From the IMG/VR virus record IMGVR_UViG_3300035698_016065, positions 1 to 26,439 of that record: a stretch of DNA of 26,439 nt; one strand, given 5' to 3'. Below are positions 14,854 through 19,804 of the stretch, piece after piece. The notes under the pieces are model-generated. The model had not been told where the DNA came from. It saw only the letters and a program-made list of their open reading frames with translations, and did not search any database. This DNA is from a virus. Positions within the stretch are counted from its first letter, which is position 1. Each line of letters starts with the position of its first letter. Made by a program: the position numbers and the translations under genes.

Positions 14854-16785
14854 ATGTTCACTAGACTCACAATCCAAAATTTTCTATCAGTTGAAAAAGC
14901 TGATATTCCTCTAGCTAATCTCGGAATTGTCCTGATTGATGGAGTTAATCAGGCGACTGACGGAGCTAGTTCCAATGGAGCCGGCAAATCAACCCTCTTT
15001 GAAGCGATTCTGTGGTGTCTTTATGAGAAAACGGTAAGAGGCTACTCCAAAGATGAAGTCATTCGTAGAGACTCTTCTGGAGGATGCTCCGTGTCTCTCC
15101 AGGCAATTATCGAAGGACGGGAATACACATTTACACGAACCCGGAAACATTCTGAATACCAGAATTCATTTACCATCACCGGTGTAGACTGCGAGAAAGG
15201 TAAGGAACAGGAAATTGTTGAAGCTCTACTAGGAGTAGACCACAAGACCTTCCTGTATATTATCATGATGGGTCAGAATTCTGGGATGATGTTAGGGGAA
15301 GCTAATGACAAGGATCAGAAGAGCTTGTACGAAAAGGTATTGATCTCTGATGATTTTGATTCTATACTGGCTCATATCCAGGCAGATATTCAAGTTCTAA
15401 ATGGAAGTATAGCTGAGGTAACTCGGAATCGAGATACACTCATCACAAATATACAGACAACTGAGGCAAATCTAGCTGCGTCTATTCCTCTTTCTCAGTC
15501 ATTCGAAGAGACTAGAGCTTCTCGTCTTCTTGAGGTAGATTCAACTCTAGTGAAACTCCAAGAGGATAAGAAAACATTAGAAGATACTCTATCAACCTAT
15601 GAGAAAAAGAGATCTGCTCTTTCCTCTCAAATTCCTCCGATAGAAGAACAGAAAGCTAGAATCTCCGTTGATGCTGTGGAACTTCAACGGGAAAGAGCTG
15701 AAAATGAATCACTCCATCAAGCTACTCAACGAGAGATAGCAGTCTCTACTTCTAAGATACGAACAATAACAGACAAGATCACCAAGCTTCAAACACTTGG
15801 AGAAGGAGAATGTCCCAAATGCTTTCAAGACATTCCTTCAGAATTTAAGGAGACCTTGGGAGTTGAATTTGAGAAGGAACACCAATTAGCCTTAAACGAA
15901 AAGAGAGAATTGGAAACCAAGCTAACAGACCAACGAACTTCTCCAGAATACCTAGGGATTATTACTAGAATTACAGAGACTTCAACAGTCCTCCAGGGAT
16001 TAGATTCAAAGATACGAGAAATTCGTTCAGAGATGGATAAGGTTGGTTCAGAAGAGAGTCAAGTGAATCACTCTCTGCGGACAGTCGATCAAAATATAGC
16101 TACTTCAACCCATCAAAGAACAACAATAGAACAAGAGACAAATCCTTACGACCTCACTGCATATGAAACCTATCTTATACGAGCTCGAGAAGAGAAAGTC
16201 ACTAATGAAGAAATACTCCAAGGTTACCAAGATAAGATATTCCATTGTGAGTTCCTCGCTGACATGTTCTCCTCAGGAGGACTGAAGAATTACATATTTG
16301 AATCTATTGTTGGTCCTCTTAATGCACGAGTAGAACAATACTCTCGGGAGTTAACCGGAGGTCAGCTTCAAATCGAGTTTTCTACTATCAAGGTTTTGAA
16401 GAATGGCAAGGCTAAAGAGAATTTCAATATCACAGTAACCAACTCCACAGGGAGTAAAGATTACAAAGGGTTGTCTGGAGGTGAGAAGAAGAGAGCCAAC
16501 ATTCTCATCCTCAGAGCTGCTCGAGATATCCTTAGTGAACGAGCTCATTACCCAATTGGATTTTGTGCCTATGATGAATTCACAACCGACCTGGATAATG
16601 TTGGAAAGGAGCTTGTCTTCCAGTTGATTGAGAAGGAAGCTGAAGAACGAGGGACTGTATTTGTCATCACTCATGATCCTGAATGGAAGTCTCGATTTGA
16701 AGACAAGAATCGAAAAGTGATTACAGCTACTAAGAAATTGACTGGGGTAACGTCCTACGAATTAAGCTGGGATGAGAAAAATTGA
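14854..16785 (+). CDS. sbcC: SbcC/Rad50-like ATPase (T4 gp46 type)
   Basis: An SMC-like ATPase of 643 residues. It has Walker A G-A-G-K-S-T (42-47), two coiled-coil arms (about 180-310 and 330-460) meeting at a zinc hook C-P-K-C (320-323), the ABC signature L-S-G-G-E-K-K-R (540-547), Walker B C-A-Y-D-E-F (571-576) and the His switch in VITHDP (H607). The arms are short compared with bacterial SbcC (about 1000 residues), as in T4 gp46. It pairs with the phosphoesterase at 12897 to process double-strand ends, which would feed the RecA at 524. Confidence 0.93.
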   Translation: MFTRLTIQNFLSVEKADIPLANLGIVLIDGVNQATDGASSNGAGKSTLFEAILWCLYEKTVRGYSKDEVIRRDSSGGCSVSLQAIIEGREYTFTRTRKHSEYQNSFTITGVDCEKGKEQEIVEALLGVDHKTFLYIIMMGQNSGMMLGEANDKDQKSLYEKVLISDDFDSILAHIQADIQVLNGSIAEVTRNRDTLITNIQTTEANLAASIPLSQSFEETRASRLLEVDSTLVKLQEDKKTLEDTLSTYEKKRSALSSQIPPIEEQKARISVDAVELQRERAENESLHQATQREIAVSTSKIRTITDKITKLQTLGEGECPKCFQDIPSEFKETLGVEFEKEHQLALNEKRELETKLTDQRTSPEYLGIITRITETSTVLQGLDSKIREIRSEMDKVGSEESQVNHSLRTVDQNIATSTHQRTTIEQETNPYDLTAYETYLIRAREEKVTNEEILQGYQDKIFHCEFLADMFSSGGLKNYIFESIVGPLNARVEQYSRELTGGQLQIEFSTIKVLKNGKAKENFNITVTNSTGSKDYKGLSGGEKKRANILILRAARDILSERAHYPIGFCAYDEFTTDLDNVGKELVFQLIEKEAEERGTVFVITHDPEWKSRFEDKNRKVITATKKLTGVTSYELSWDEKN

Positions 16786-17035
16786 TATCAAGAAAGCATT
16801 AGAAACACTTCAGGAAGACTTAGATAATCCTGAAGGATTCAAGATATGCAAGGGAAGATATGGAGACTATGTTACATTGACAACAGACAAATCTGTATAT
16901 CTTATTCGGCCAATTACTCCTCAGACATGGCAGATTAAATTTCCATGGAAGGGAGTAACTAAGCGTTCTACCATTTCATATCTCGTAGCTACTGATAAAT
17001 TGTTAGAAGATATAGAAGAGAAACTAAAGAAATGA
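16772..17035 (+). CDS. Hypothetical protein
   Basis: An 87-residue basic protein overlapping the end of sbcC by 14 nt. The sequence suggests an alpha-beta-beta-beta-alpha fold, but no family is recognised. The ATG of the next gene lies within its last codons. Confidence 0.5.
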   Translation: MRKIDIKKALETLQEDLDNPEGFKICKGRYGDYVTLTTDKSVYLIRPITPQTWQIKFPWKGVTKRSTISYLVATDKLLEDIEEKLKK

Positions 17036-17340
17036 AGACATATAGATTCAAAGTAGAGTTCACTCAAACTTATGAAATACTAGCAAAGAATTCAGAAGAT
17101 GCTAATAACAAAATTAAGGATGTAATAGATGTAGACGAATTTGCTATGTCTGGAAGTCCAGAAATAGAATATTATGGAGTTGAGGACGAACCTATTAAGT
17201 GTCCTGATTACAAGGGAGAAGGAACGATTCCTCAATTATCCACAAATAGGGAAGACGATTTGTATGATATGTGTCCTCGTTGTAAGGGAGATGGGGAGAT
17301 AATACCTGAAGAATACTTTGACGAACCGTTCCATGTATGA
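17032..17340 (+). CDS. Zinc-finger-like protein with DnaJ-type motifs
   Basis: A 102-residue protein. The N-terminal ~50 residues may form a small alpha/beta domain. The C-terminal half has two C-x-x-C-x-G-x-G-like motifs. The second is complete (C81, C84, G86, G88), but in the first the second Cys is Tyr (C57-P-D-Y60-K-G-E-G). The Tyr codon TAC is one base from TGC. This may be a decayed or re-purposed zinc site. It is coupled to both neighbours by 4-nt overlaps. Confidence 0.5.
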   Translation: MKTYRFKVEFTQTYEILAKNSEDANNKIKDVIDVDEFAMSGSPEIEYYGVEDEPIKCPDYKGEGTIPQLSTNREDDLYDMCPRCKGDGEIIPEEYFDEPFHV

Positions 17341-18299
17341 GTGATCTAACTACACCAGAATGGATTGGATTTATTGAGTTCTTAGAAGCTCGCCAAGAGG
17401 TCACCTACAATCGCCACTTCCTCCAGAAACCTGCTCCGTGGACAGAAGACCCAATCCTAAAGAACTACCATTTCACCAATCTCTATCGGGAATTGGATGC
17501 TGTTACTATTGAAGAGTTGGAAGCTGTAGCAGTAATGGATTCCTCGTCTCCAAATCGAAAGGTAAATATCTTCATGTATGTCCTTATGATGAGGATATTC
17601 AATAGTCCTAAGCTGACCAAATATTTCTGGAGATTGAAAGATACATTCCAAAATACAGAGGAGGAATGGCATGAATTCCAAGAAGAGGTAAGAAATTTAG
17701 AACACGGAGATGGGAGATGGGATTACTTCATCAGTAATGCAATTCTCTTTGTCCCCTTGAGAGGATATAATCGAGTATCATTTGCTTGGTTCTTATTCAA
17801 GAAATGGAAGGAATTGTTTGATTCTCTTCTTTCGAAAGTATCCACACACTCGTCTCAAGAACTTATCTTCAAATCCTCAGCAAAAGAGTTTCTCTCGTTT
17901 GTAAGGGAGTTGTTCCCGAGAGTAGGATGGTTTATGGCTTACGAAGTATTCACATCTATGTCATATTTCCAATGGTTCCCTTATTCAGAGAATGACCTAG
18001 TCGTTGTGGGACCAGGAGCTAAACCCACTGTTCAGAAACTAGCCATTTCTCCAGTTAAGGATAACGACTTAGAGCAATGGGTATTAGATCATTATCAAAA
18101 GGTGAGAGAAACTCTGCTCAAACGAGGGAAGTTCAAATGGATACCAGAAGGCCACCAAGATCATCTTTTCGAAAATTCTAAATATGAATATCCTAAGTTT
18201 ACTGCACGAACATTGGAACACTCTTTGTGTGAGTATAGAAAATACTGTAGGATAAGAGAAACTGGAAAAGCTAAACGACGATTTAGAAAGGGTGGATGA
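17337..18299 (+). CDS. HMUDK / alphaGPT-PPlase family protein (thymidine hypermodification)
   Basis: A 320-residue protein with the hallmark blocks of the family described with 5-hydroxymethyl-dU DNA kinases and alpha-glutamyl/putrescinyl-thymine pyrophosphorylases. These are WIGFIEFLEARQ (9-20), PWTEDPIL (34-41), FTNLYRELDAVT (46-57), a helical core (about 76-100), GWFMAYEVF (197-205), VVVGPGAKP (222-230), and near the C-terminus LEHSLCEYRKY with a basic tail. In phages such as ViI, SP10 and M6, related enzymes replace thymine methyl groups with larger adducts. The exact reaction here cannot be read from the sequence. It is first in a four-gene block with a P-loop kinase, nucleotidyltransferase and deaminase. 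Confidence 0.8.
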   Translation: MSDLTTPEWIGFIEFLEARQEVTYNRHFLQKPAPWTEDPILKNYHFTNLYRELDAVTIEELEAVAVMDSSSPNRKVNIFMYVLMMRIFNSPKLTKYFWRLKDTFQNTEEEWHEFQEEVRNLEHGDGRWDYFISNAILFVPLRGYNRVSFAWFLFKKWKELFDSLLSKVSTHSSQELIFKSSAKEFLSFVRELFPRVGWFMAYEVFTSMSYFQWFPYSENDLVVVGPGAKPTVQKLAISPVKDNDLEQWVLDHYQKVRETLLKRGKFKWIPEGHQDHLFENSKYEYPKFTARTLEHSLCEYRKYCRIRETGKAKRRFRKGG

Positions 18300-18870
18300 T
18301 CATATCTCAATAGTTTCTAGAAAGCTTCTGATCAACTTGTTCGGGGGTCCAGGCTCTGGCAAAAGTACAGCAGCTTATAGCTTATTTTCAGTATTGAAAA
18401 AGAAAGGGATGAATGTGGAAGTTGTCCCGGAACTTATCAAATCAAAGGTATATAGAGCAGAGAAGCTAACTATCTATGATCAATGGGTAAATGTAGCCTC
18501 TCAAGCCAGAGAGGAAGACTCTCGTATTTCGAAGTGTGACATCGTTATCTGTGAATGTCCAGCCAAGCTCTCTGCGTGTTATACAGAGTTCTACAATGAC
18601 TCAGAGGTTATTGATGGGACCTGTTTTAGATTCCTTGAATGGCACCACAAAAAACTCAATAAGAAATTTCCTGGGTTATATGTCTACAATATCTTCCTGG
18701 AACAACCTCCGAAAAGCATATATCAATCTGCTGGAAGAATAGAAGATTATGATTCCGCTAAACAAGTCTCCCAGTTCATTCGACAAATCTGTCAAAAGGA
18801 TGATATAGAGATATTGCCTTTCGGTAGTGATATTGAACACCTTGGAGCAATACGACGAAGTGTAATATGA
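18292..18870 (+). CDS. P-loop kinase (AAA-type nucleotide or base kinase)
   Basis: A 192-residue ATP-binding protein with Walker A F-G-G-P-G-S-G-K-S-T (17-26), a Glu/Lys-rich lid-like middle, and a D-I-V-I-C-E-C segment fitting Walker B. The length and layout resemble small AAA_28-type kinases found next to base-modification genes in phages. The 5-hmdU DNA kinase that phosphorylates hydroxymethyl-uracil in DNA is one candidate role; a deoxynucleotide or metabolite kinase is another. It overlaps the preceding gene by 8 nt and the next by 4 nt. Confidence 0.75.
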   Translation: MDDHISIVSRKLLINLFGGPGSGKSTAAYSLFSVLKKKGMNVEVVPELIKSKVYRAEKLTIYDQWVNVASQAREEDSRISKCDIVICECPAKLSACYTEFYNDSEVIDGTCFRFLEWHHKKLNKKFPGLYVYNIFLEQPPKSIYQSAGRIEDYDSAKQVSQFIRQICQKDDIEILPFGSDIEHLGAIRRSVI

Positions 18871-19367
18871 TGGTAAATTATAGCTGGCAACGGAAGGTGA
18901 TAAGTGTTTCCGATTTGCAGGAACTCGCTAAGAAGAGAGGATCAGAATTGTGGTGTATGACTAATGGGTGTTTCGACATAATTCATTCAGGACATGTTGC
19001 CTTCTTACAACAATCGAAATTCTATGTAGGTTCAGTGGGAAAATTGATAGTATGTCTAAATACGGATAGATCAGTTCGTGAGATAAAGCCAGGAAGACCT
19101 TACAATTCATTCCCAGAAAGATCTACCACTCTCTCAGCTCTAGAAGGAGTTGATTACATAGTTCCTATAGAGAGTTCTGATGATTTGTGCAAGATCGTTA
19201 AATCTGTTAAGCCGGAGTATTATACTAAGTCTGGGAAGATGTCAACTGATAAACCTTTTCAAATGGAGAAAGAGGAGATAGAAAAAGTAGTAGATAGGTA
19301 TCTTTTCGTTCCCCAAATGTTTTATACATCAACTTCAGCTCTCGTAGATAAAATAAAGACCTCATGA
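18867..19367 (+). CDS. Nucleotidyltransferase, HldE/TagD-like (cytidylyltransferase fold)
   Basis: A 166-residue protein with the nucleotidyltransferase signature T-N-G-C-F-D-I-I-H-S-G-H (32-43), containing the H-x-G-H motif. It also has the NTDRSVREIKPGRP loop (65-78), E84-R85 in the F-P-E-R turn, and T-S-T-S-A-L (154-159) as the second nucleotide-binding motif. Closest in style to the ADP/CDP-heptose branch (HldE C-terminal domain). Such enzymes join a phosphorylated small molecule to a nucleotide. In this cassette it may activate the group to be attached to modified bases (inference). Its ATG overlaps the previous stop. Confidence 0.82.
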   Translation: MMVNYSWQRKVISVSDLQELAKKRGSELWCMTNGCFDIIHSGHVAFLQQSKFYVGSVGKLIVCLNTDRSVREIKPGRPYNSFPERSTTLSALEGVDYIVPIESSDDLCKIVKSVKPEYYTKSGKMSTDKPFQMEKEEIEKVVDRYLFVPQMFYTSTSALVDKIKTS

Positions 19368-19804
19368 ATCTAGACATAGCCCAACGGATGTTAGAAGAAG
19401 GAATTAAGAATGCGTATTGTCCGTATTCCAATTTCCCAGTTTCATGCCTTATTAGATCAGCCAAGACTGAGAATTATTATGTAGGGGCAAATGTTGAGAC
19501 TTCTCATTACAAAGGACTTCATGCGGAAGAAGTAGCTATCTCTAGAATGGCAATGAACGAAGGGACTCTTGGTAAACTGGAATGGGATTTAGTAATTGTG
19601 TATTCACCACTTGAGAGGATTACTCCATGTGGAAATTGTCTTCAAGTATTGAGTGAATTCGTCATTACTACTCAGATTACTGAACCGGAACCTCTTGTTA
19701 TGTCTATGTATTTGATACCGGACAAAACTACAGTGTTTGAGAGTTTCACATTTCTAGAACTATTACCGAATCCCTTTACTTTCGACAGAAATAAAGTAAA
19801 GTAA
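19364..19804 (+). CDS. cdd: Cytidine/deoxycytidine deaminase (Cdd-like)
   Basis: A 146-residue enzyme of the zinc-dependent Cdd family. It has YCPYSNFPVSC (18-28), N-V-E (43-45), the catalytic H-A-E (53-55) as in E. coli-type Cdd rather than C-A-E, and P-C-G-N-C (88-92), with C89 and C92 as zinc ligands. LELLPNPF (131-138) matches the C-terminal Cdd motif L-L-P. It turns (deoxy)cytidine into (deoxy)uridine and so could feed a uracil- or thymine-derived base pathway. The 4-nt overlap with the nucleotidyltransferase supports joint expression. Confidence 0.88.
   Translation: MNLDIAQRMLEEGIKNAYCPYSNFPVSCLIRSAKTENYYVGANVETSHYKGLHAEEVAISRMAMNEGTLGKLEWDLVIVYSPLERITPCGNCLQVLSEFVITTQITEPEPLVMSMYLIPDKTTVFESFTFLELLPNPFTFDRNKVK

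Follow-up and report, generated by a model that had tools for sequence, protein, structure and literature searches.

Organization of the locus

The window analysed here, that is, the whole stretch of DNA under study, is a complete IMG/VR record of 26,439 bases, and from its predicted gene content it looks like a piece of a large T4-like phage. Among the phage-type genes encoded in it are those for a UvsX-like recombinase, a RuvC-like resolvase, a terminase, a portal protein, an SbcCD-like nuclease, a prohead protease and a gp23-like major capsid protein. Our interest centred on four consecutive genes of the plus strand: gene 1 (17337..18299), coding for a divergent HMUDK_hel protein (PF18723, formerly aGPT-Pplase1) of 320 aa with a predicted HhH DNA-glycosylase-like fold; gene 2 (18292..18870), which has a GTG start and codes for a P-loop nucleoside/nucleotide kinase of the phrog_2107/AAA_28 type of 192 aa; gene 3 (18867..19367), coding for an HldE/HldC-like nucleotidyltransferase of 166 aa; and gene 4 (19364..19804), coding for a cytidine deaminase of 146 aa. 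The four open reading frames, their coordinates and strand, and the overlaps of 8, 4 and 4 nt that join them are all as described in an earlier sequence-only reading of this DNA, which took them for a coupled cassette possibly building a hypermodified thymidine.

The chain of overlapping genes to which these four belong begins three genes upstream, with an SbcC-like gene (14854-16785) followed by genes at 16772-17035 and 17032-17340, and the boundaries drawn around the proposed cassette are therefore functional guesses rather than structural ones. Across the whole window 18 of the 36 adjacent same-strand gene pairs overlap, so that overlap is no mark of a dedicated pathway, and we rejected it as evidence of coupling. 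The short gene immediately upstream (17032-17340) overlaps gene 1 by 4 nt and displays a DnaJ/zinc-ribbon-like CxxCxGxG pattern, with weak Pfam matches.

Single-protein scans of IMG/VR with the hel protein, the nucleotidyltransferase, the capsid protein and the terminase recovered no close relative of this phage, and hence none that displayed conserved linkage of the four genes. Several human faecal contigs labelled 'Bacteriophage sp.', which were matched by the nucleotidyltransferase, the deaminase or UvsX, were rejected as relatives, each of them having one protein in common only; the two among them matched by the nucleotidyltransferase and the deaminase look bacterial in their gene content.

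A divergent member of the PF18723 family

The product of gene 1 matches the PF18723 (HMUDK_hel) profile with 120.3 bits (E-value 1.3e-34) against a cut-off of 25, over positions 7-275 of the 281 in the profile, and blastp aligns it end to end with gp55 of phage M6 (3e-19, residues 4-316, 26% identity). The earlier placement of this protein with the HMUDK/aGPT-Pplase1 families was thus right, and by these comparisons it is a genuine but highly divergent PF18723 member. An AlphaFold2 model (pLDDT 82) gave no significant match with Foldseek alone. The HhH match comes from realignment with VIA-align, in which the model paired with a queuosine-salvage glycosylase (Z 9.8), the 5-PmdU glycinyltransferase 8z2n (Z 9.2) and 8-oxoG glycosylases (Z ~9), against Z ~3 for unrelated folds. 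These relationships point to an HhH DNA-glycosylase-like architecture suited to the handling of bases.

Most of the residues that are near-universal in PF18723 (e.g. R19, F46, R51, D54, the GPG motif at 225-227, the CE pair at 298-299 and K302) are retained in gene 1, with two conspicuous replacements, D207 by serine and G231 by threonine. In the redundant set of 112 homologues, position 207 is occupied by aspartate in 111, and the remaining one, from a ViI-type phage, is a local misalignment in which the sequence reads VDF; position 231 is glycine in 111, with a single gap. There are 37 positions at which 90% or more of the non-redundant homologues agree; gene 1 keeps 27 of these and departs from the consensus at the other 10. 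The presence of S207 and T231 in place of a near-universal aspartate and glycine suggests that the activity of the protein may have been altered or lost. In the tree of hel proteins the window protein is placed weakly, on a branch of length 4.31 and with a bootstrap of 76.

The kinase, nucleotidyltransferase and deaminase

Gene 2 matches phrog_2107 (3.2e-13) and AAA_28 (3e-7) and bears the Walker A motif GGPGSGKST. Its AlphaFold2 model (pLDDT 82) is closest to the kinase domain of NadR (five structures, Z 17.6-18.0; for 8x7f, Z 18.0 and rmsd 2.1 with 167 aligned), a ribosylnicotinamide-kinase fold, followed by thymidylate kinases (Z ~15.6) and deoxynucleoside kinases. Since this fold is common to the TMPK and dNK proteins, the NadR-type fold of gene 2 is not specific. 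In a profile-profile comparison with PF18748-type kinases the P-loop alone aligns, over 27 columns, and on this alignment and blastp we rejected the possibility that gene 2 is a homologue of M6 gp54. It is best read, as a prediction, as a nucleoside or nucleoside-monophosphate kinase and not as a member of PF18748, the known 5-hmdU DNA kinase partner family. Relatives of gene 2 occur in jumbo and other phages, and none of the 23 fetched viral loci and none of the 4 phage regions containing them has PF18723 nearby; in GAP32 a member of the family lies close to genes for a dCMP deaminase and an anaerobic ribonucleotide reductase.

The top NCBIfam match of gene 3 is TIGR02199 (rfaE_dom_II, domain II of HldE) at 1.6e-26 and 92.8 bits, against a curated cut-off of 181.5, which makes it a relative of HldE rather than an equivalog. 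Other matches are to PF01467 (CTP_transf_like, 8.5e-14), phrog_7878 (6.7e-22) and PDB 5x9q (1.2e-13 over residues 6-164), and both the HxGH motif (FDIIHSGH, H40-S-G-H43) and the C-terminal S/T-rich TSTS motif (YTSTSAL) are intact. No match to the NMN-adenylyltransferase families (NadR/NadM/NadD) was obtained at E-values up to 1.

Gene 4 is recognized by PF00383 (dCMP_cyt_deam_1; 2.7e-13, 50.1 bits, cut-off 25) and by TIGR01354 (cyt_deam_tetra; 5e-24, 84.9 bits), in the latter case under the equivalog cut-off of 113.65, and it also matches the cytidine deaminase structures 1zab and 1mq0. A complete zinc site can be read from its sequence, comprising H53-A-E55 and P88-C89-x-x-C92, with H53, C89 and C92 as ligands and E55 as the catalytic residue. 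The motif in gene 4 (19364-19804) is H-A-E-E; tetrameric cytidine deaminases usually have C-A-E-R at this point, and the form seen here is a natural counterpart of the zinc-ligand variants studied in the Bacillus subtilis CDA. Profile searches with the four proteins thus bore out the earlier calls of a gene 1 inside PF18723, a P-loop kinase, an HldE-like nucleotidyltransferase and a deaminase, with the qualification that genes 3 and 4 fall below the NCBIfam equivalog cut-offs.

Genomic contexts of PF18723 proteins

We surveyed 80 related viral loci with PF18723, of which 42 are flanked by 6.5 kb or more on either side. A thymidylate-synthase homologue is found near PF18723 in all 42 of these well-flanked loci, which makes a link of gene 1 to 5-hmdU DNA reasonable, and a thymidylate synthase is carried by 7 of the 7 named phage records tested. 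Two architectures recur among the 80 loci: one combines ADDT, a PF18748-type kinase, hel and thymidylate synthase, and the other combines hel, a TAGT glycosyltransferase and thymidylate synthase without the kinase. A further group of loci has hel and thymidylate synthase only. In a ViI-type phage the thymidylate synthase and the PF18748 kinase adjoin each other, 50 kb from hel.

PF18723 is either paired with the PF18748 kinase, as in M6, where gp54 matches PF18748 and gp55 matches PF18723, or fused to it, as in the Bacillus phage SBSphiC, beside a thymidylate synthase. The window resembles M6 in that gene 1 is homologous to gp55 over its full length and adjoins the gene of a P-loop kinase. However, this kinase is of another family, the order is hel-kinase rather than kinase-hel, genes for thymidylate synthase, ADDT, radical SAM and PLP enzymes are missing from the vicinity, and S207 and T231 are unique to the window. 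SBSphiC shares the same helical domain and falls, weakly (bootstrap 76), in the same part of the tree, but there the domain is fused to a canonical PF18748 kinase and has thymidylate synthase as a neighbour.

Among the other PF18723 loci surveyed, 104 from viruses and genomes, not one shows the four-gene arrangement of the window. Individual components of it do meet elsewhere. A phrog_7878 nucleotidyltransferase occurs together with hel in 5 of the 80 viral loci and in 2 of the 20 whole records. These five loci (L011, L077, L079, L086 and L088) are pelagiphage-like and resemble the window in having PF18723 and a PHROG 7878 nucleotidyltransferase in one region; they differ from it in that the nucleotidyltransferase is 25-30% identical to that of the window and lies 4-6 kb off beside the DNA polymerase, in the presence of a TAGT glycosyltransferase and a thymidylate synthase, and in the lack of the kinase and the deaminase. 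Conversely, hel was found near the HldE-like phrog_7878 nucleotidyltransferase in 0 of the 80 sampled phage loci fetched with this enzyme, on which count we rejected the nucleotidyltransferase as a marker of PF18723 loci; as far as these gene neighbourhoods indicate, the association of the two is weak.

The thymidine-modification cluster of phage SP-15, which is concerned with dihydroxypentyl-uracil, has a proposed UTP-glucose-1-P uridylyltransferase and a proposed CDP-glycerol glycerophosphotransferase (PMC5977210). It is akin to the window in containing a nucleotidyl/uridylyltransferase within a proposed thymidine-hypermodification cluster, although its enzymes, judged from the description in that paper, are other than those of the window. 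A nucleotidyltransferase in such a cluster is thus not without precedent.

Two further occurrences of PF18723 were noticed in metagenome-assembled genomes, where the neighbouring genes were identified by eye. A Nanoarchaeota MAG contig that also encodes transporters and metabolic proteins has the family near a divergent thymidylate-synthase-like gene (L200:7923-10116). In a MAG contig from Bacilli the PF18723 gene comes right after a radical-SAM-like one (L205:1016-2978), no thymidylate synthase having been found in the fetched locus.

Possible roles of the four genes

With respect to the enzymes expected of thymidine hypermodification, a search of the 26-kb fragment confirmed that a thymidylate synthase is missing from the window, and it yielded neither a match to the PF18748 (HMUDK_HMUD1) kinase at E-values up to 10 nor the adduct transferases ADDT (PF18724) and TAGT glycosyltransferase (PF20691). 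As thymidylate synthase and PF18748 lie 50 kb from hel in a ViI-type phage, their absence from a 26-kb piece says little, and the absence of ADDT and TAGT likewise says little.

The reading that we favour, and to which we give about an even chance, is that the four genes form part of the nucleotide- and DNA-modification region of a large T4-like phage and do not constitute a self-contained new pathway. Gene 1 would be related, at some distance, to the helical subunit that handles the base in the 5-hydroxymethyl-dU DNA kinase system of phages, and its family and fold suggest that it flips out a modified thymidine within the DNA and holds it there for a partner. The kinase and the deaminase most likely serve the free pyrimidine pool, for instance by the conversion of dC to dU and then to dUMP, and gene 3 probably makes an NDP-activated phospho-compound, destined for a DNA base or for something else. 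Should the phage possess the usual hydroxymethylase, PF18748 kinase and adduct transferase, their genes would lie outside the window; in a ViI-type phage those of the hydroxymethylase and the kinase are likewise remote from hel. The modification of thymidine by this phage is plausible, and most likely it belongs to the thymidine-modifying phages.

A serious rival, though on the whole we think it rather unlikely, is that the function of gene 1 has been altered or lost: the protein would be repurposed or decaying, the phage would be devoid of thymidine hypermodification, and the four genes would represent ordinary accessory nucleotide metabolism. The loss of both D207 and G231, unique to this protein, the change of 10 of the 37 conserved positions and the very long branch all speak for this, as does the absence of other hypermodification genes from the 26 kb. 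Yet the 320-aa frame is intact, the other 27 conserved positions are kept and the score is well over the PF18723 cut-off, and a fragment of this size is too small for absence to be judged, given the 50 kb that separate hel from thymidylate synthase and kinase in a ViI-type phage.

Distinctly unlikely, in our estimate, is the original proposal of a single pathway formed by the four genes, in which 5-hmdU in DNA would be activated and would then receive a group that the nucleotidyltransferase provides, resulting in a new thymidine adduct. It draws on the contiguity of the genes with their overlaps of 4-8 nt, on the tie of the PF18723 family to 5-hmdU, on the pelagiphage-like loci in which nucleotidyltransferase, thymidylate synthase and TAGT accompany PF18723, and on the precedent of SP-15, for which a uridylyltransferase and a CDP-glycerol-type transferase have been proposed (PMC5977210). 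Against it stand the uniqueness of the arrangement among PF18723 loci, the commonness of HldE-like nucleotidyltransferases in phages without PF18723, and a kinase which is not of the PF18748 family and whose relatives elsewhere have no link with PF18723. Moreover, the overlaps are ordinary for this DNA, S207 and T231 set gene 1 apart, and no transferase that could move an activated group onto DNA was found in the fragment. A more specific version, which we regard as a long shot, would have an altered HMUDK_hel protein act with a NadR/TMPK-fold kinase that replaces PF18748, the HldE-like enzyme then joining a nucleotide or an NDP-activated polyol or sugar phosphate to phosphorylated 5-hydroxymethyl-dU to give a new nucleotidylated or sugar-phosphate-linked class of thymidine. 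Finally, it is very improbable that genes 2 and 3 are a split NadR-like pair for NAD+ salvage (nicotinamide riboside kinase and adenylyltransferase), perhaps directed against NAD-depleting defences, because, even though NadR structures head the matches of the gene 2 model and its gene adjoins that of an HxGH nucleotidyltransferase as in NadR, gene 3 matches HldE/RfaE domain II and no NMN-adenylyltransferase family, and the kinase fold is one that dTMP and deoxynucleoside kinases also have.

Implications for the PF18723 family

If the phage does modify thymidine, as in our preferred reading, it would do so with a set of partners unseen beside the other sampled PF18723 members and with an altered base-handling protein, and this would widen the known chemistry by which phages shield their DNA against restriction. 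The pelagiphage-like combination of PF18723, TAGT and thymidylate synthase, without the 5-hmdU DNA kinase, suggests that the helical domain is used in a pathway of glycosylation as well. Its occurrence in two settings, with a kinase and an amino-acid transferase on the one hand and with a glycosyltransferase on the other, suggests a general module for the presentation of 5-hmdU rather than a part of any one enzyme.

The survey also brought to light an annotation problem in this family: PHROG 800, labelled 'terminase small subunit', is the PF18748-PF18723 5-hmdU DNA kinase family (L004:4053-5963, the SBSphiC fusion, at 3.6e-248, and L003:5426-5989), and the record of M6 gp54 bears the same misannotation.
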